Below are positions 5,034-15,273 of a stretch of 56,576 nucleotides of DNA, piece after piece. Position 1 is the first letter of the stretch. Each line of letters opens with the position of its first letter. The stretch spans positions 1 through 56,576 of the forward strand of contig JAOFDG010000005.1 of NCBI GenBank assembly GCA_028033615.1, read 5' to 3'. This DNA comes from Verrucomicrobiales bacterium. GTDB taxonomy: Bacteria > Verrucomicrobiota > Verrucomicrobiia > Verrucomicrobiales > DEV007. Position numbers and translations under genes: made by a program. Below the pieces are notes generated by a model. The model was not told the origin of the DNA. It ran no database searches and worked only from the letters and a program-made list of their open reading frames with translations.

Positions 5034-5966
5034 ATGAGTAAAAATAATAGGCAAACAGATAGTAAAAGCGATAAGCAGTCATGGATTGATGTCTTTGCGA
5101 GAACGCAAAGGTCTAAGTCCACGGGTGAAGAGGGATGGAAGAAAGATGTTCCAAATATAAAGCTCTCAAGAGCTTTTATTGTGGTTCTCATACTTCACGT
5201 TGTTGCGGTTGGTGGAATATTAGCATTTGAAATGTTTAAATCAAATGAGTCAAATGTTACGGCTTCTTTAAAGTCAGAGAGTTCTAACGGTGCTGTGGAG
5301 GAATCTGTAGATGTAAGAGAAAAGCCTGAAAGTCACAAATCAACTGAAAGACTGGGTACTAATGAAGGTTTTGAAAAATATATTGTTCAGAAAGGAGATA
5401 GTATAAGGGCCATTGCCGATTCTTATAAGGTTTCTAGGACAGAGATATTAGAAACAAATTTGATAGATGAAGCTCATCCATTAGTGAGTGGAAGAATTTT
5501 AAGAATTCCAAAGCCAAAAATGTCAATTAGTGGTGATGATGGTGTCGTAAATGGTGATTTTGTTTCTATTGAAGAACTTACTGCAAGCTCGGATGAATTA
5601 GATGGTGATTTAAATGAAGTTGAAGAAGTTGATAAAAAGATTGTCGAGGAAGATGATGGATATCAATTACTCTCAAAAACAGATAAACAACCAGATAGTA
5701 AAATAATCCCTCGAGCAATTCCAGTATCTGCTGAAACTGAGTACCGATCTGCAAAAGTCGTTAGAGAAATACCAGCAGAGTCATTAATTGCCAGTAGCGT
5801 TCCAGTTACAAAATTAGGTATTGGGTCCATGTACACCATTGAATCAGGAGACACTCTTTATGGTATTGCTCGTAAATATAATGTGAGTATAGATCAGATC
5901 TTGAAGCTTAATCCTAATGTTAATCCTAGGACATTAGGCATCGGTAGATCATTGCGGATGCCGTAA
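5034..5966 (+). CDS. Bitopic membrane protein with two LysM domains, embedded in the dcw cluster
   Basis: Not a classical dcw gene; a predicted septal peptidoglycan-binding protein. The 310 residues divide into a cytoplasmic, Lys/Ser-rich head (1-45), one transmembrane helix (about 47-66), and a long extracytoplasmic part with LysM domains at about 115-160 (YIVQKGDSIRAIA) and 266-310 (YTIESGDTLYGIA, ending LRMP). Between them is an acidic low-complexity linker. Residues 225-234 read IPRAIPVSAE, nearly identical to the last ten residues of FtsQ from the same operon. LysM domains bind GlcNAc-containing glycans. Placement directly between murD and ftsW suggests a structural or regulatory role at the division site; this is inference. 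I cannot assign a named family beyond LysM. Confidence 0.85.
   Translation: MSKNNRQTDSKSDKQSWIDVFARTQRSKSTGEEGWKKDVPNIKLSRAFIVVLILHVVAVGGILAFEMFKSNESNVTASLKSESSNGAVEESVDVREKPESHKSTERLGTNEGFEKYIVQKGDSIRAIADSYKVSRTEILETNLIDEAHPLVSGRILRIPKPKMSISGDDGVVNGDFVSIEELTASSDELDGDLNEVEEVDKKIVEEDDGYQLLSKTDKQPDSKIIPRAIPVSAETEYRSAKVVREIPAESLIASSVPVTKLGIGSMYTIESGDTLYGIARKYNVSIDQILKLNPNVNPRTLGIGRSLRMP
5706..5735 (+). other. Copy 1 of the shared IPRAxPxxAE motif (LysM protein)
   Basis: These bases encode residues 225-234 of the LysM protein, IPRAIPVSAE, in the linker between the two LysM domains. The same pattern recurs at the C-terminus of FtsQ (bases 12530-12559) and partly at 12431-12451. The segment should face the extracytoplasmic side. 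Function is unknown; a short docking motif is one possibility. Confidence 0.6.
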
Positions 5967-5990
5967 TTAATTGCTTTTTACTTATATTTA

Positions 5991-7148
5991 ATGGGAGAGA
6001 AAAGTTTAACGATATTCATTATTTCGATCATTAGTTTGCTCGGTTTGGGTATAGTGATGCTCTTGAGTACGAGCGTCTTTATATCTGAAAGGTCTGACGT
6101 TTATCATGATGTAAACCGACAATCTATCTGGCTAGGAATGGGAATAGTTTTATGTGCAGCAACAGCTTTGATCGATTATCATTTTTGGTATAAATCAAGG
6201 TGGTTCTGGTTTGTTATTTCTATAGTCGCATTGATTTTATGCTTTGTTCCTCCAATAGCACAGCCGGCAAACGGTTCTTCGAGGTGGATAGGTTTGGAGG
6301 CTTTTGGCCTAGGTTTTGCAAGAATACAACCATCTGAGATTGCAAAAATCTCATTAATATTTGTGCTTTCGGGGTGGTGCTCAAAATATTATGAACGAGC
6401 TTCGGAGATTAAGTGTGGATTTATATACCCAATAATAATATCTCTTATTCCTGTTACCTTAATTGCAGTTGAAACAGATATGGGAACTGCAGCACTGCTT
6501 ATTTGTGCTTCACTCGTTCTTCTTTTTGTTAGTGGGAGTAACATAAAAATGTTCATTACAACGGCGAGTGTATCTGTGGTCGTTCTCTCTTTGGCGGTTT
6601 GGTTTAATCCAAATAGGCTTGAACGATTTATTGCATTCTTAGATCTTGAAGCACATAAAACTGGCTTTGGTTTACAGCAATGGAGGGCTCAGTTAGCAAT
6701 GGGTGAAGGAGGTTTTGCAGGGCTTGGTCTAGGTGAAGGAAGAGAGAAATTAATGTATATGCCTTTTGCTCATACTGATTTCATTTTTCCGATGATAGGT
6801 GAAGAGTTAGGTGCTAGAGCTACCTTATCAGTTGTATTGATTTTTGTTCTTATTCTAGTCATTGGTGTATCGATTTCAAATTCTGCGCCTGATAGGTTTG
6901 GTAAGCTTTTAGGTTTTGGTTTAATTACACTCATATCGCTTCAGGCTTTGCTTAATATAGCTGTTACTACAGGATGTTTACCTAATAAGGGATTGCCTCT
7001 TCCTTTTGTTAGTTATGGTGGCTCAAATTTACTGTTTTGCTTGGCTGCAGTAGGGATTATTTTGAATATCTATAGGCAAGGTCATGAACCGGTAGTAGAT
7101 CCAGATAGTAAACTTTTAGAGGGGCATAGAACGCTACCAAGGATATAA
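5991..7148 (+). CDS. ftsW: Septal SEDS glycosyltransferase FtsW
   Basis: SEDS-family membrane protein that polymerises glycan from lipid II at the septum together with a class B PBP. The 385 residues hold about ten transmembrane helices. Family motifs include NGSSRWIGL near residue 94, the QPSEIAK segment, FIFPMIGEELG near residue 265, a GLPLPFVSYGGSN motif near 337 and a final helix with AAVGIILNI. The short loop after HTDFIFPMIGEE carries the conserved acidic residues of the family. It follows the LysM gene after a 24-base gap and precedes murG by 4 bases. FtsW is preferred over RodA because of the dcw location. Confidence 0.95.
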   Translation: MGEKSLTIFIISIISLLGLGIVMLLSTSVFISERSDVYHDVNRQSIWLGMGIVLCAATALIDYHFWYKSRWFWFVISIVALILCFVPPIAQPANGSSRWIGLEAFGLGFARIQPSEIAKISLIFVLSGWCSKYYERASEIKCGFIYPIIISLIPVTLIAVETDMGTAALLICASLVLLFVSGSNIKMFITTASVSVVVLSLAVWFNPNRLERFIAFLDLEAHKTGFGLQQWRAQLAMGEGGFAGLGLGEGREKLMYMPFAHTDFIFPMIGEELGARATLSVVLIFVLILVIGVSISNSAPDRFGKLLGFGLITLISLQALLNIAVTTGCLPNKGLPLPFVSYGGSNLLFCLAAVGIILNIYRQGHEPVVDPDSKLLEGHRTLPRI

Positions 7149-7152
7149 ATTA

Positions 7153-8247
7153 ATGAGCCTTCGTTTAATAATTGCATGTGGTGGAACTGGAGGCCATCTA
7201 TTCCCGGGAATTGCTGTTGCCGAGGCGCTAATTGATAAGGGAGGAGAACCTCTCCTAATAATTTCGAAAAAAGAAATTGATGCTTTGGCTATGCAGGGAC
7301 ACAGCAATATAAATTATGAATGCTTAGCATCTATTGGAATGCCAAAGTTTTATTCTCCCAAGATGATTAAATTTCTGAGTAGTTTTTTTGTAAGTTACCG
7401 GAAAAGTAAAAATATACTGAAAAGTTTTAAAGCTGATGCCGTCTTGGGTATGGGAGGGTTTACCTCTTTGCCACCATTGCTTGCAGGTAGAGCTAATAGA
7501 ACTAAAAACTTTATTCATGAATCGAATGCTTTTCCGGGTAAGGCAAACCGAGTCGCGTCACGTTGGGCTGATCATATTCTTTTGGGAATGGAGCCGTGCG
7601 GAAGTTATTTCAAGGATAAAAATTTTGAGGTGGTAGGAACACCTCTGAGGTCAGTTCTAAGAAAAGAGTATGATAAAACTGAAGCTATACAACATTTCGG
7701 ACTCAATCCTGACAAGAAGACTATTTTGGTAATGGGAGGTAGTCAAGGTGCTCAGGTGCTAAACTCTACCATTATTCAAAATCTAAATAAAATTTATGAA
7801 GCTGGTATTCAGCTTTTACATATTACAGGCCCTGCAGATTTTGAAAGAGTAAAATCACATTATGGAGAGTTTTCGAATTTTTCATGTGTTATCCCGTTCT
7901 CTAGTGAAATGCATTTAGCCTACAGTGTATCAGATATTGCAATTGTCAGATCGGGTGCGTCAAGCTTGGCTGAAATATCAGCCTATTCGATTCCCTCAAT
8001 TTTGGTTCCTTATCCATTTGCAACTGATGATCATCAAACTTTAAATGCAAATCACTACGTAAAAAATGGCGCAGCCTTCCTTTTGCCTGAGAATAAACTT
8101 AACGCAAATTCGCTTTTTGAAATTCTGGATCAATTATTCGATGAAAATAACGAAAAATATAAGAACATGAAATCATCAATGCAGAGTCTTTCGGTTGTAG
8201 ACTCTGCTGAGAGGATATGCGAAAAAATTAACAATCATTGTAATTGA
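7153..8247 (+). CDS. murG: UDP-GlcNAc:lipid I GlcNAc transferase
   Basis: Peripheral GT28 enzyme at the inner face of the membrane that converts lipid I to lipid II. The 364 residues show the N-terminal glycine-rich motif CGGTGGHLFPGIAVAEAL, GMGGFTSLPPLLAG, HESNAFPGKANR, the second glycine-rich loop GGSQGAQVLN near 196, and the donor-binding RSGASSLAEIS and PYPFATDDHQTLNA segments. The ATG at 7153 lies 4 bases after ftsW. The TGA stop overlaps the TTG start of the murC-murB gene. All recognised motifs are intact. Confidence 0.97.
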   Translation: MSLRLIIACGGTGGHLFPGIAVAEALIDKGGEPLLIISKKEIDALAMQGHSNINYECLASIGMPKFYSPKMIKFLSSFFVSYRKSKNILKSFKADAVLGMGGFTSLPPLLAGRANRTKNFIHESNAFPGKANRVASRWADHILLGMEPCGSYFKDKNFEVVGTPLRSVLRKEYDKTEAIQHFGLNPDKKTILVMGGSQGAQVLNSTIIQNLNKIYEAGIQLLHITGPADFERVKSHYGEFSNFSCVIPFSSEMHLAYSVSDIAIVRSGASSLAEISAYSIPSILVPYPFATDDHQTLNANHYVKNGAAFLLPENKLNANSLFEILDQLFDENNEKYKNMKSSMQSLSVVDSAERICEKINNHCN

Positions 8248-10553
8248 AAAATAATTGGTCAGATAGATTACATTCAGGAGCTCAACAACCGATTAAAATT
8301 CATTTAATCGGTGTTGCAGGTTCTGGGATGAGTGGAATCGCAGGCCTTTTATTAAGCTTGGGCCATGAAGTTAGTGGGTCAGATAAAGCAGACACAAAAG
8401 AAACTGAGCGGCTTATTAAATCTGGATTAAATTTCTGTGGGTCGCATTCTCCAAAACATGTGGATAATGTAGATTTAGTTATCTATTCTTCCGCAATCAA
8501 GCCTGGTAATGTTGTTTACGACAAGGCAATTGAAATGCGAATACCAATGCTTAGAAGGGCGGAGGCTCTCGTTGCAATAATGGCTGCAAAAAAAAGTATA
8601 ATAGTTGCAGGTACTCACGGTAAGACAACGACATCATCGTTAGCAGCAAAAGTTCTTAGGACAAGCGATTTAAAGCCTTCTCACTATGTTGGGGCAGAGG
8701 TACCTATACTTGGTACCAATGCTTTTTGGGATATGGAGGGTGATTATTTTATTGCTGAAGGTGATGAAAGCGATGGGAGTCTAGTTGGTTATGATCCAGA
8801 ATACGCAATACTATTAAATGTAGAAGAGGATCATTTAGATTATTATGAAAGTGGGATTGAGGGAATAAGAAATGTATTTAATGAATATCTCGATAAGTGT
8901 AGAAAAAAAATAATCTATTGTTCTCACGATGTAGAAGCGACGGAGCTTTGTTCAGATCGGGAGAATATAATATCTTATGGATTTGAGAAGGGTGACGACG
9001 TTCGAGGAGAAATAAAAGAAGTAAGAGAAGGTAGTACAGATTTTATTGTATATGCCGACGACCAACTTTTGGGATTGGTTACTTTAGGTATCCCAGGCAA
9101 GCACAACGTATTGAATGCACTTGCTGTAATTGCGCTTGCCACTGAATTGGGGATTGGGTTTTCTGCGATATCAAAATCAATGGCGGAATTTAGAGGGGCT
9201 CGTAGGAGGTATGATATTTTATATAAGTCATCAAATTATTCAATTGTTGATGATTATGGCCACCATCCTACAGAGATAAAGGCCACTATTGAAACAGCAA
9301 AACAACATAATCCTGAAAGGCTGATGTGTGTATTTCAGCCGCATCGCTACAGTCGAACAAAGATGATGTTGGAGAAATTCTCGACTGCCTTTACAGGTAT
9401 CGATAAATTGTTTGTCACTGATGTTTATGCAGCAGGAGAAGAGCCAATAGATGGTGCAGACGCTGATGCAATTGTTCGTTCCGTAATCCAAAAGGATGGA
9501 GTTGATGCAAAAGTATTGCCGTGCTTTGAAAGAGCTCACCATATAATTGGAGCTGAAATGAGAGCCGGCGATAACTTGTTAATTTTAGGAGCCGGAAACA
9601 TTCATGAGGTTGGATCTATCCTAGCTAGAGACCTTGAGGTTTTAGATAAGCTAAGAAGAGAGCTCGATGATCCAATGAGTGAATGTAGGTTATACGAATC
9701 AATGAGGAGACATACTACTTTAAAAGTGGGAGGACCTGCTCAGTATTGGATTGAACCAATTACAGTAGAGAGTTTTTCAAAGACGCTTAGGTTCTTTGAA
9801 CAATTAAATATTCCCGTCCGGGTGGTGGGAAGAGGATCAAATCTCTTAGTATGTGATGGAGGAATTGCCGGTGCTGTGATTCGGCCGTCAGGAGGTGAAT
9901 TTAGTGAAGTTAGTATTTCAGGTGATCTTATTACTGCAGGAGTTGGAGCTCGATTTAAAAAATTGAATAGTGCTGCAAAGAAAAATGAGATTAGAGGATT
10001 TGAGTGGATGGAGGGAATACCAGGAAACGTAGGAGGTGGTTTGAGAATGAATGCAGGAGCCATGGGAGTTGAGACCTTTGACCAAGTCGTATCAGTTAAG
10101 TTTTTAGACTCAAAGGGGGATTTGTATGAAAGGTCTGCGGAAGAGTTAAAAGCGAAGTATAGAAATGTTCCAGAATTAAAGAATAATTATGCAGTCTCTG
10201 CAGTATTTAAAGGAGATAAAGGAAGATTAAAAGATATTGAGAAGCTAACTCAAGATTCGATGGTGAAAAGAAAAGCAAGCCAACCTATTGCTGCAAGCGC
10301 AGGATGCATTTTTAAAAACCCTGATCATATTTCTGCTGGAAAATTAATAGAGGAGATGGGTATGAAAGGTTTTAAGGCTGGAGCGGCCAGAGTTTCTGAA
10401 GTTCATGGAAATTTTATAGTTAATGAAGGAGGAGCTACAGCAGAAGATGTGCTATCGCTAATTGATCAAGTCAAAAAAAATGCCTTAGAGAAATGTGGTG
10501 TGACGCTTGAAACTGAAGTGCAAATTATAGGAGAACAACAAATTACTTATTAG
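8244..10553 (+). CDS. murC/murB: MurC-MurB fusion: UDP-MurNAc:L-alanine ligase / UDP-MurNAc dehydrogenase
   Basis: Bifunctional enzyme for two consecutive steps: FAD-dependent reduction of UDP-GlcNAc-enolpyruvate (MurB) and addition of L-Ala (MurC). Residues 1-465 are MurC, with IHLIGVAGSGMSGIAG (19-34), P-loop GTHGKTTT (123-130), EGDESDGSL and EEDHLDYY. Residues 485-769 are MurB, with the FAD-binding GRGSNLLV (529-536), GIPGNVGGGLRMNAG (591-605) and the C-terminal ARVSEVHGNFIVN. The residue matching the E. coli catalytic serine in SAGSFFKNP is Cys688 here (SAGCIFKNP). The short MurB half lacks the extra loop of E. coli type, suggesting type II. The start is TTG inside the murG stop (TTGA overlap). 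Fusing the two activities fits PVC bacteria. Confidence 0.96.
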   Translation: MKNNWSDRLHSGAQQPIKIHLIGVAGSGMSGIAGLLLSLGHEVSGSDKADTKETERLIKSGLNFCGSHSPKHVDNVDLVIYSSAIKPGNVVYDKAIEMRIPMLRRAEALVAIMAAKKSIIVAGTHGKTTTSSLAAKVLRTSDLKPSHYVGAEVPILGTNAFWDMEGDYFIAEGDESDGSLVGYDPEYAILLNVEEDHLDYYESGIEGIRNVFNEYLDKCRKKIIYCSHDVEATELCSDRENIISYGFEKGDDVRGEIKEVREGSTDFIVYADDQLLGLVTLGIPGKHNVLNALAVIALATELGIGFSAISKSMAEFRGARRRYDILYKSSNYSIVDDYGHHPTEIKATIETAKQHNPERLMCVFQPHRYSRTKMMLEKFSTAFTGIDKLFVTDVYAAGEEPIDGADADAIVRSVIQKDGVDAKVLPCFERAHHIIGAEMRAGDNLLILGAGNIHEVGSILARDLEVLDKLRRELDDPMSECRLYESMRRHTTLKVGGPAQYWIEPITVESFSKTLRFFEQLNIPVRVVGRGSNLLVCDGGIAGAVIRPSGGEFSEVSISGDLITAGVGARFKKLNSAAKKNEIRGFEWMEGIPGNVGGGLRMNAGAMGVETFDQVVSVKFLDSKGDLYERSAEELKAKYRNVPELKNNYAVSAVFKGDKGRLKDIEKLTQDSMVKRKASQPIAASAGCIFKNPDHISAGKLIEEMGMKGFKAGAARVSEVHGNFIVNEGGATAEDVLSLIDQVKKNALEKCGVTLETEVQIIGEQQITY

Positions 10554-10571
10554 AGCAACCTAGAAATAACA

Positions 10572-11495
10572 ATGTCAGTCGATCATAAAACAATTGCAGT
10601 ATTAATGGGGGGACCAGGGAGTGAGAGGGATGTTTCAACCGCTTCAGGTAGAAGCGTTTCAAAGGCGCTTGCTGAGAAAGGGGCGGCGGTTATTGATGTG
10701 GAGCTCAAGACTAATGAATTAATTTTAGAGGATGATGTGGATCTGGTATTTAATGTTATACATGGAACTTTTGGGGAAGACGGGGAACTTCAAAAAATTT
10801 TAAATGAAAGGCGTATTCCCTACACAGGTGCAGGAGCTTCAAGTAGCGAAATTGCTTTCGATAAACTTCTAAGTAAGAAAAACTTCGTTGAAAATGGGGT
10901 TAATACTCCATTGTTTGAATTTATTTCCACTAATGGTGAAGACAAGCCTCAAATCGAAAAGCCCTATGTTATAAAACCGCCTAAAGAGGGTTCAAGTGTA
11001 GGAGTTCATATAATTAGGGCTGATTATGAATATAATGAAGCGATTGAGGATGTTGCAAAATACGATGAGATAGCACTAGTGGAAGAATTTATATCAGGTA
11101 AAGAGCTGACAGTTGGAATCCTTAATGGAGAGGCTCTACCTATAGTTCATATAAAACCTGAATCAGGTTTTTATGATATGAAGAATAAATATCCATGGTT
11201 GTCAGGTGGGCAAGGGAGCCAATATTTTTGTCCCGCAGAATTAGATGAGCATACAACGAAATTGATTCAAGAGTTAGCGATAGAAGCTCACAAATCTCTA
11301 GGAATCGAAATTTACTCTAGAGTCGATATTTTATTATCTGAAGATAACACCCCATATGTCCTTGAGGTTAATACAATACCAGGAATGACTGAGACAAGTT
11401 TGTTGCCTAAAGCAGCAAGTGCTAATGGAATTAATTTCGCTGACCTATGTGAACAAATTGCAGATCTTTCAATGAGGCTTAGAAAAAAATATTAA
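10572..11495 (+). CDS. ddl: D-alanine:D-alanine ligase
   Basis: ATP-grasp ligase that makes the D-Ala-D-Ala used by MurF. The 307 residues include LMGGPGSERDVSTASG near residue 11, HGTFGEDGELQ, TGAGASSSEIAFDK, the ATP-grasp loop KPPKEGSSVGV, the omega-loop region with KNKYPW (the tyrosine favours D-Ala over D-lactate as second substrate), and LEVNTIPGMTETSLLPKAA with metal-binding Glu/Asn. The ATG at 10572 lies 18 bases after murC-murB, and ftsQ follows by 5 bases. No sign of D-Ala-D-Lac type vancomycin resistance. Confidence 0.96.
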   Translation: MSVDHKTIAVLMGGPGSERDVSTASGRSVSKALAEKGAAVIDVELKTNELILEDDVDLVFNVIHGTFGEDGELQKILNERRIPYTGAGASSSEIAFDKLLSKKNFVENGVNTPLFEFISTNGEDKPQIEKPYVIKPPKEGSSVGVHIIRADYEYNEAIEDVAKYDEIALVEEFISGKELTVGILNGEALPIVHIKPESGFYDMKNKYPWLSGGQGSQYFCPAELDEHTTKLIQELAIEAHKSLGIEIYSRVDILLSEDNTPYVLEVNTIPGMTETSLLPKAASANGINFADLCEQIADLSMRLRKKY

Positions 11496-11500
11496 TCAAA

Positions 11501-12562
11501 ATGAAAAAGAATAAACGCTCATTATCATCAAAGGGACACTCTCGGATGCGAAAAAGAAAAGTAACCCGTAAAGGTGTTAAGCAGAGTTTGAATGTAAGAG
11601 TAAACTCTAAGAAGTCGGTCAGTGTTAGAAGAAAAATTTTCTTTGTGAGGTTTTTAAAATGGACTGCACTAACAGCTATGATGCTTGTCGTTTTATTTGG
11701 TTCATACAGAGGAGTTGATAGATTCTTGTTTGAGAGTCCAAAATTTGCGTTGAGTAATATCAATTATAAAACTGATGGAGAGTTGCCACAATCAAGGGTT
11801 CTTAAAAATTCCGGTATTGTATTAGGTCAGAATATACTTCGAATTAATATAAAAGATGCAAAAGAGAGAATTCTTAATGAATTGCCAATGATTAAAGAAG
11901 TCGAAATTATTAGGCAGATGCCTGGTGATATGACTATTAAGGTTTCTGAAAGGGTGCCAGTTGCATGGTTAAGTGGACAAAATACACCAGAATCTGACCT
12001 TAGAATTATTGGAGGTATTTTGCTTGATAGTGGAGGTAATGCTTTTGCTGCAGAAGAACCTGTTTTAAGATTTAAGAGCCTCCCAGTGATGATTTCTTCG
12101 GAATATTCTAAAGTGAGCCCTGGCTATGAACTAAATTCTTTGCCTGTTCAAAAAGGACTTGAGATTGCCTTAAATTTTTACGACTCATTTAGAAATTCAC
12201 CAGTTATTTTGGAATCTTTGCACTCCAGAAATGACTTTTCAATTATAGGATATATAAACACAGGAGCTGAGATAACCTTTGGATTTGATGATATTCCAAG
12301 GCAGGTTAGTGATTTGAAGCTTTTACTAGCTGAGGCGACTCGAAGGGGTAAAGTTTTAGCTGAAGCAAATGTTATGGTTAAGAGGAATACTCCAGTAAAA
12401 TTTGCTAATAATTTCATATCAGATTCTACTGCGCCTAGAGCTGTTCCAGTGACGACTAGATCTGTCCCTAACAATCAAGGAAGCAAAAAGAAATCTAAAA
12501 CGCATAAAAAGTTAAATAAAGTGGTCAAAATTCCTAGGGCGCTTCCTATTGATGCTGAATGA
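11501..12562 (+). CDS. ftsQ: Cell division protein FtsQ/DivIB with C-terminal IPRA motif tail
   Basis: Bitopic divisome protein linking early and late division proteins. A very basic cytoplasmic tail (residues 1-52) precedes one transmembrane helix (about 53-68). A POTRA domain (about 82-152) ends with the typical PGDMTIKVSERVPVAWL, and the FtsQ beta domain runs to about 300. The last 45 residues are a Lys/Ser/Pro-rich extension containing APRAVPV (311-317) and ending exactly in IPRALPIDAE (344-353), which matches residues 225-234 of the LysM protein. In E. coli the FtsQ C-terminal region contacts FtsB, so a tail motif there could be a partner site; that extrapolation is mine. The start ATG is 5 bases after ddl. 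Confidence 0.9.
   Translation: MKKNKRSLSSKGHSRMRKRKVTRKGVKQSLNVRVNSKKSVSVRRKIFFVRFLKWTALTAMMLVVLFGSYRGVDRFLFESPKFALSNINYKTDGELPQSRVLKNSGIVLGQNILRINIKDAKERILNELPMIKEVEIIRQMPGDMTIKVSERVPVAWLSGQNTPESDLRIIGGILLDSGGNAFAAEEPVLRFKSLPVMISSEYSKVSPGYELNSLPVQKGLEIALNFYDSFRNSPVILESLHSRNDFSIIGYINTGAEITFGFDDIPRQVSDLKLLLAEATRRGKVLAEANVMVKRNTPVKFANNFISDSTAPRAVPVTTRSVPNNQGSKKKSKTHKKLNKVVKIPRALPIDAE
12431..12451 (+). other. Partial copy of the shared IPRA motif (FtsQ residues 311-317)
   Basis: Encodes APRAVPV in the FtsQ C-terminal extension, matching the first seven positions of the LysM-protein motif in five residues with conservative changes elsewhere. It is followed by a Thr/Arg/Asn-rich spacer before the full copy at the C-terminus. 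Confidence 0.4.
12530..12559 (+). other. Copy 2 of the shared IPRAxPxxAE motif (FtsQ C-terminus)
   Basis: Encodes IPRALPIDAE, the final ten residues of FtsQ, directly before the TGA stop. Identical to the LysM-protein copy at seven of ten positions (I, P, R, A, P, A, E); the I/L and V/I differences are conservative. Confidence 0.6.
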
Positions 12563-13908: not shown

Positions 13909-15273
13909 ATGCTAGAATACGAGAGAAAACCTGCAGAAGGAGCCCCAGCACTGGAGCCTGAAAAAGTCAAAGTTATTGGTATTGGAGGCGCTGGGTGTAA
14001 TGTCTTGGACAGGATAGCTCTTCATGAAAGAATTGATGAGGGCGAGCTTTTAGCTCTCAACACAGATGTAAGGGATTTGGTTTCATCAGTTGCTCAGGAT
14101 ACTATTCAGCTTGGTAAGAAATTAACGCAGGGTTTGGGGGCTGGGGGAGACCCTGAACTTGGTGAGGAAGCTGCTGAGGAAGCAACTAATGAGATTAAGG
14201 AAGTTCTAAAAGGTAAGTCGTTAGTCTTTATATGTGCAGGTCTTGGTGGAGGAACTGGTTCTGGTGCTGCTCCAATTATCGCAAAACTTGCCAAGCAGGC
14301 AGGAGCGTTCGTTGTTGGTTTCGTCATGATGCCATTTTCCTTCGAAGGTCGCAGAAGGTTACAACAAGCGAATGATGCATTAACTCAGATGGAGGAATGC
14401 ACAGACGCGCTAATGACTTTTGAGAATGATAGAATGGGAGGATTAGTTGTGCCCAAGGAAGGAATTCAGCAAGCCTTTGCCGCAGCAGATCAAATCATTG
14501 GTCAGAGTGTTGGCGCTATCATCAAGTTAGTCGTCCAACCTGGATTAATTCGAATTGGCATGGATGACCTTTTGACTGCACTTAAGAATGAAAGTTCACG
14601 CTGTCTTTTTGGTTATGGTCAAGCCTCTGGTGATAATAGGGCTCAAGAAGCTCTTAAAGCAGCTCTTAAAAACCCACTGCTTGATAAAGGTCAAATGCTT
14701 AACCAGTCGACTAGCTTAATAGCGTATATTAGCGGAGGGGAGTCGACCACGCTCTTTGAAGTTGAGCTTCTAATGAATGAGATGTCTAAGTACGTTAACG
14801 ATGAAGCTCATATATTATTCGGAGTTTCCTCGGATCAGAAACAAGGAGATAATTTAAGCTTAACTATTATAAGCTCTGTCGGTAAACTAGGTGGCTCGAC
14901 GGCTGATATAAAGATAAAAAAGGAAGAGGCAGTCTCTGAAGAGACTCCAAATGAGGAGAGTTCAGTTTCTGAGGGAGAGTTGCCGGAGCCGTTTGTGTCA
15001 ACTGATGGAAATGAAGAAGTCGATGAGGAAGAAGTCGATGAGGAAGAAGTCGATGAGGAAGAAGTCGATGAGGAAGAAGTCGATGAGGAAGAAGTCGATG
15101 AGGAGGAAGTCGATGAGGAGGAAGTCGATGAGGAGGAAAGCGTTGTGGAACAACAGGATCTATTGCCCGAGAAAAGGTCTGGAAGAGGCCGATTTGAAAA
15201 AGCTGAGCCAAGTGTCACTGACGATGGAGAAGATCTAGATGTCCCTAGTTTCTTAAGGAAAAAGAAGAAATAG
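13909..15273 (+). CDS. ftsZ: Cell division GTPase FtsZ with altered T7 loop and EVDEE-repeat linker
   Basis: Tubulin-like GTPase forming the Z-ring. The 454 residues contain VIGIGGAGCNV (22-32), ALNTD (49-53), the tubulin signature GGGTGSGAAP (113-122) and PFSFEGRRR. The T7 synergy loop, normally GLINVDFAD, reads GLIRIGMDD (212-220): the Asn and the first catalytic Asp are replaced by Arg and Gly, while the last Asp is kept. The linker after about residue 330 is acidic and includes eight perfect EVDEE repeats (residues 370-409). The C-terminal peptide DLDVPSFLRKKKK matches the usual FtsA-binding tail. The Shine-Dalgarno-like aaggt lies just before the ATG. Upstream ftsA and the normal tail argue that it is the functional FtsZ. 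Confidence 0.96.
   Translation: MLEYERKPAEGAPALEPEKVKVIGIGGAGCNVLDRIALHERIDEGELLALNTDVRDLVSSVAQDTIQLGKKLTQGLGAGGDPELGEEAAEEATNEIKEVLKGKSLVFICAGLGGGTGSGAAPIIAKLAKQAGAFVVGFVMMPFSFEGRRRLQQANDALTQMEECTDALMTFENDRMGGLVVPKEGIQQAFAAADQIIGQSVGAIIKLVVQPGLIRIGMDDLLTALKNESSRCLFGYGQASGDNRAQEALKAALKNPLLDKGQMLNQSTSLIAYISGGESTTLFEVELLMNEMSKYVNDEAHILFGVSSDQKQGDNLSLTIISSVGKLGGSTADIKIKKEEAVSEETPNEESSVSEGELPEPFVSTDGNEEVDEEEVDEEEVDEEEVDEEEVDEEEVDEEEVDEEEVDEEESVVEQQDLLPEKRSGRGRFEKAEPSVTDDGEDLDVPSFLRKKKK
15016..15135 (+). repeat. Eight tandem 15-bp repeats in ftsZ encoding EVDEE
   Basis: The unit gaagtcgatgagga(a/g) is repeated eight times without interruption. The first five copies end GAA and the last three end GAG, the only variation, which points to recent stepwise duplication. 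Each unit keeps the reading frame, so copy-number change alters only the FtsZ linker length. Open frames seen here in other phases and on the minus strand are artefacts of this repeat. Confidence 0.95.

Follow-up and report, generated by a model that had tools for sequence, protein, structure and literature searches.

A short peptide motif shared by cell wall elongation and division proteins of Verrucomicrobiales

We found that a seven-residue motif, roughly (A/V/I)-P-(R/K)-A-(L/I/V)-P-(V/I/L), is carried by at least four core proteins, FtsQ, a LysM membrane protein, RodZ and a PBP2/MrdA-like class B PBP, the last two of which are encoded outside the dcw cluster. By Pfam, these four belong to unrelated families whose only common ground is wall synthesis. 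The motif, which in a wider form reads [AVI]-[P/L]-[RK]-A-[LIV]-P-[VIL], probably serves as a short linear docking motif: tethers of the elongasome and the divisome, anchored in the inner membrane, would present it to one shared periplasmic partner. Its distribution suggests a single docking partner for the two machineries, elongation and division, of marine Verrucomicrobiales.

The motif in the dcw cluster

The window, that is, the whole stretch of 56,576 nucleotides analysed here, contains a dcw cluster in the order murE, murF, mraY, murD, LysM, ftsW, murG, murC-murB fusion, ddl, ftsQ, ftsA and ftsZ, in which the genes that were not scanned against profiles are named by sequence recognition. 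Translation places three copies of the motif exactly where the original prediction had them, one in the LysM protein and two in FtsQ:

5034..5966, + strand: gene of the LysM membrane protein, between murD and ftsW (open reading frame; two stretches matching PF01476; AF2 helix at residues 46-67)
5706..5735, + strand: IPRAIPVSAE, residues 225-234, in the linker between the two LysM domains (translation; genus alignment; low AF2 confidence)
11501..12562, + strand: ftsQ, encoding a TM segment, a POTRA_1 domain, a beta domain and a disordered C-terminal tail (open reading frame; PF08478; AF2 tail 285-353)
12431..12451, + strand: APRAVPV, in the FtsQ tail, aligned as PRA[VL]P[VI] in 5/5 genus sequences
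12530..12559, + strand: IPRALPIDAE, the final ten residues of FtsQ; the same place in relatives has IPRALPIESE, IPKALPVDSE, LKALPIDSG or LKALPVSSG

Apart from one stop-interrupted frame, these are the only in-frame PRAxP sites in the window, and in the whole assembly of the window (54% complete) the LysM and FtsQ sites alone match a DNA pattern for IPRA[x]P. The arginine codons vary among the copies (CGA, AGA or AGG), so the copies did not arise by DNA duplication, and a repeat at the DNA level was ruled out on these grounds. The identity of FtsQ follows from a TM segment preceding an FtsQ-type POTRA domain (PF08478, 41 bits over a cut-off of 23) and from the gene order ftsQ-ftsA-ftsZ. The LysM protein is laid out as a cytoplasmic N-terminus, one TM segment, a first LysM domain, a disordered linker and a second LysM domain. 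As had been proposed, the motif segments of the two proteins are consistent with one extracytoplasmic compartment, since in each a single TM segment is followed by LysM domains or POTRA on the outside. Elsewhere in the cluster, the C-terminal linker of FtsZ (window 14835-15218) holds a tandem acidic repeat, (DEEEV)n.

Nine LysM genes were found in the genus, and each of them encodes the motif, kept as PRAIPVS (PRAIPV plus S). In seven aligned LysM sequences PRAIPVS is invariant inside an otherwise variable linker, where it is the sole run of seven invariant columns; given 15 invariant columns among 105, a run of this length has a chance of about 3e-5. The same linker contains two other conserved islands, DG[FY]Q[LF]L at residues ~208-213 (window ~5655-5672; DGFxPL in other genera) and [KR][IV]V[RK]EI[PS] at residues ~242-246 (window ~5757-5771). 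FtsQ has two or three copies in 7/7 genus members with the gene, either APRAVPV and IPRALPIDAE or IPRALPI, VPRALP and LKALPID. FtsI is without the motif in the dcw stretches that contain ftsI.

Carriers outside the cluster and spread across the order

Pattern searches of the whole genomes of ten genus members, followed by reading of the frames, revealed two further disordered carriers that recur across the genus, and both are wall proteins. The PBP2/MrdA-like protein, encoded beside uvrC, has three or four copies directly after its signal or anchor in 6/6 genus members (for example, IPKAIPI..APRALPV..VPKAIPL); it scores 449.3 bits with TIGR03423, against a curated cut-off of 455, with PBP_dimer and Transpeptidase both over their cut-offs. 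RodZ, encoded behind an FtsK-like gene, has APKAIP[IV] near the C-terminus of its periplasmic tail in 7/7 of the genus members that encode it, among them the genome of the window (C14:31701). This protein combines a cytoplasmic HTH_25 domain (PF13413, 59.1 bits over a cut-off of 24.6), one TM segment, visible as a hydrophobic stretch in the sequence, and a periplasmic tail; the NCBIfam RodZ model is its best match, though below that model's own cut-off. The PBP2 and TPR genes were not found in the 54% complete assembly of the window.

A TPR protein whose gene accompanies those of ExbB and ExbD has one to three copies of a variant, P[RK]AEP[VIL], behind its signal peptide. This gene set adjoins uvrC-PBP2, and its TPR copies read PRAEPV, with PRARP at one locus. 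DUF6600 proteins, which have a tryptophan-rich domain, carry a copy in four of the genomes examined, at a position that varies from before to after the domain. The remaining in-frame matches that we inspected lie in globular or unrelated proteins. Domain-internal matches in globular proteins, named by sequence inspection, were set aside: LPRAVPM in chorismate synthase, GPRAVPL in a PQQ-like protein, a protein with TPRAMPV and a HEAT-like protein.

Beyond the genus, PBP2 carries the motif in several genera of the family, with four PRALPV in one genome (G020) and three PRALPV plus one PRAIPL in another (G014). In other families of the order, PBP2 copies lie immediately past the signal peptide (AQDAPKALPVEN, AQDAFIPRALPVEN and AQDVPKAVPMQN). 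RodZ tails of other genera have LRAVPV, LRATPI or LRAVPL, and RodZ of another family has PPKAVPVSEEE at its C-terminal end. Within the family, some genera but not all keep the motif in FtsQ (APRALPV, VPRALPV...APRALPV, APRAQPV and IRATPI), and the exact motif was not found in the LysM protein outside the genus; the set of carriers thus turns over. PBP2 of a family provisionally called Akkermansia-like has no motif, and class-wide sampling of PBP2 outside the order gave no convincing one apart from stray C-terminal look-alikes. The motif is nearly restricted to this order.

Other terminal features of these proteins emerged from the same comparisons. In other genera of the family, the C-terminus of FtsQ is [LIV][RK]SILxGG in place of the PRALP copy. 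Across the order, PBP2 finishes with a tail of basic and aromatic residues (for example, FRRLFxR, FGRRRR or FNPFRKKR), which may be another conserved peptide, and [HN]RFPR[PTR] closes the RodZ tails of several genera. By its sequence, PBP2 of one family appears to have a cleavable signal peptide, with SPAQ before the apparent cleavage site and DVPKAVPM after it; if cleaved, that protein would be without a membrane anchor and the motif would stand at its mature N-terminus.

Excess over chance and predicted disorder

We assembled 93 segments of extracytoplasmic linkers or tails in relatives, excluding the copies of the window and the near-identical LysM and FtsQ of one relative (G003). Of the 93, 32 contain the strict pattern P[RK]A[ILV]P[VIL], with 51 copies in total, compared to 0.08 in within-segment residue shuffles; these sequences are related, so the 51 copies are not independent events, and LysM copies are undercounted as some LysM segments were shortened by the script. 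Six reversed, scrambled or substituted control patterns gave 0-1 matches in the same segments. Each of the four families singly exceeds its shuffles (29 compared to 0.01, 7 to 0.02, 11 to 0.01 and 4 to 0.01). At position -2, which the search pattern left free, A, V, I or P stands in nearly every copy.

Rather than being absent from the same proteins of close relatives or occurring at random in many proteins, the two outcomes against which the original prediction had set itself, the motif is kept by every genus member that bears the gene, and strict in-frame matches in the most complete member (G008, 94%) fall in nine proteins, of which four are wall machinery. This corresponds to a hypergeometric probability of 1e-7 to 4e-6 for assumed wall sets of 20-50 proteins in an assumed proteome of 3500.

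In AF2 models built from shallow alignments (five sequences for FtsQ and seven for LysM), the FtsQ tail (residues 285-353) and most of the LysM motif segment have pLDDT below 50, and the motif segments are presumably disordered. By topology, each carrier is either exported or held in the inner membrane by an anchor, so the motif should face the periplasm. Three features of a short linear motif are found here: a segment predicted to be disordered, recurrence in unrelated proteins above chance and conservation above the flanks in orthologues. Searching PDB sequences with the PBP2 tether (phmmer) returned nothing useful.

Interpretation and known systems

The original prediction saw the peptide as a feature of two division proteins in one dcw operon, which is too narrow given that elongation proteins at unlinked loci also carry it. 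Its idea of a putative common docking partner is supported in part, is still the best reading and gains from RodZ and PBP2 as carriers. We favour docking to a shared reader because unlinked elongation and division proteins share a disordered, conserved, multicopy peptide. In this view, peptidoglycan-synthesis proteins anchored in the inner membrane would expose the motif on flexible tethers in the periplasm. Those of the divisome are FtsQ and the LysM protein, those of the elongasome RodZ and PBP2, and the TPR protein of the ExbB/ExbD system would expose the variant form. We consider it most likely that a single reader, a protein or domain of the periplasm found at the two wall-synthesis sites alike, would bind the peptide in extended form; given its alternation of aliphatic, P, basic, A, aliphatic, P and aliphatic positions, the peptide could, speculatively, lie stretched out in a groove. 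With 3-4 copies in PBP2 and 2-3 in FtsQ, a tether could gain avidity, and the reader would bring synthases and regulators together or hand on a wall-synthesis factor that elongation and division share. More tentatively, a dedicated reader of Verrucomicrobiales might bind the common tag on PBP2, RodZ, FtsQ, LysM and the ExbB/ExbD-associated TPR protein, forming a single physical hub where wall-synthesis capacity would be contested by elongation and division or transferred from one to the other.

The motif might instead mediate contacts among known wall proteins, the reader being one of them, for example a SEDS protein (RodA/FtsW), the pedestal of a class B PBP, or the TPR or DUF6600 domain of a co-carrier, with no separate hub. 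SEDS proteins and class B PBPs have paralogues in both complexes, the LysM gene adjoins ftsW, the genes for ExbB/ExbD and the TPR protein with its PRAEPV variant adjoin uvrC-PBP2, and DUF6600 proteins sometimes carry the motif themselves. The very low confidence of the motif segments means that the single-chain AF2 models of FtsQ and LysM predict no docking of these segments onto FtsQ or LysM domains, although the alignments are shallow and SEDS/PBP2 pairs lie outside such models; overall, we consider this arrangement unlikely. The basic residue and rigid prolines could also attach the segments directly to peptidoglycan or to some other envelope polymer, which would fit core carriers that are all wall proteins, with R or K at the basic position of every counted copy (as fixed by the search pattern). 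Such binding is improbable given that each copy has a single charge, often followed by acidic residues, that the aliphatic positions are constrained too and that two domains of the LysM protein already bind the wall.

A short, exposed peptide repeated within one compartment could also be what a periplasmic protease or a modifying enzyme recognizes, and the original prediction had offered a shared processing site. We regard this as quite improbable: the copies are multiple, spaced and N-terminal in PBP2, C-terminal in FtsQ and RodZ and in the middle of LysM, so that the outcomes of cleavage would be unrelated; X-P bonds resist most proteases, and the core has no conserved Ser, Thr or Asn acceptor. 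Against docking stand the turnover of the carrier set, the lack of the motif in FtsI and the fact that no reader came to light. Proline-rich linkers can also drift alike, and the PBP2 tethers are indeed proline-rich, with one to four copies across relatives. Yet functionless drift of Pro/Ala/Val-rich linkers, or repeat expansion, is strongly disfavoured and very improbable, as the shuffles that yield 0.08 copies preserve composition, scrambles of the same residues are practically absent, the motif is conserved within variable linkers across the genus and it sits in four unrelated genes with differing codons.

How cells apportion wall-synthesis capacity to elongation and to division is not settled, and a tag on PBP2, RodZ, FtsQ and LysM offers a testable handle on this question; the motif also marks a layer of the wall machinery peculiar to this lineage, in a phylum whose division is little studied. 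A literature search for the motif strings, or for a motif shared by elongasome and divisome, gave nothing relevant in the papers searched, and the main text of a paper on the essential genome of V. spinosum mentions neither LysM nor RodZ (PMC12283558).

Docking to a shared periplasmic reader would have partial precedents in known systems. Like the conserved C-terminal peptide of FtsZ, which is bound by FtsA, ZipA, ZapD and SlmA, the motif is a short conserved peptide ending the disordered linker of a division protein; the FtsZ peptide is cytoplasmic and serves many partners from one protein, whereas the present motif would be periplasmic, on many proteins and with apparently one reader. The E-domain peptide of FtsN, which activates FtsQLB/FtsWI, is likewise a short periplasmic peptide acting on a wall-synthesis complex, but it differs in sequence and is confined to one protein and to the divisome. 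The R-A-L-P core resembles class I SH3 ligands ([RK]xxPxxP, of the RALPPLP type), and PBP2 often has P at +6 (16/38 copies); this second proline is rare in FtsQ, RodZ and LysM and missing from most of their copies, and we know of no matching SH3-type reader in the periplasm. The contacts among MreC, RodZ, PBP2 and RodA in the elongasome involve two of the same carriers, PBP2 and RodZ, but those known are between domains and not through a motif common to FtsQ.
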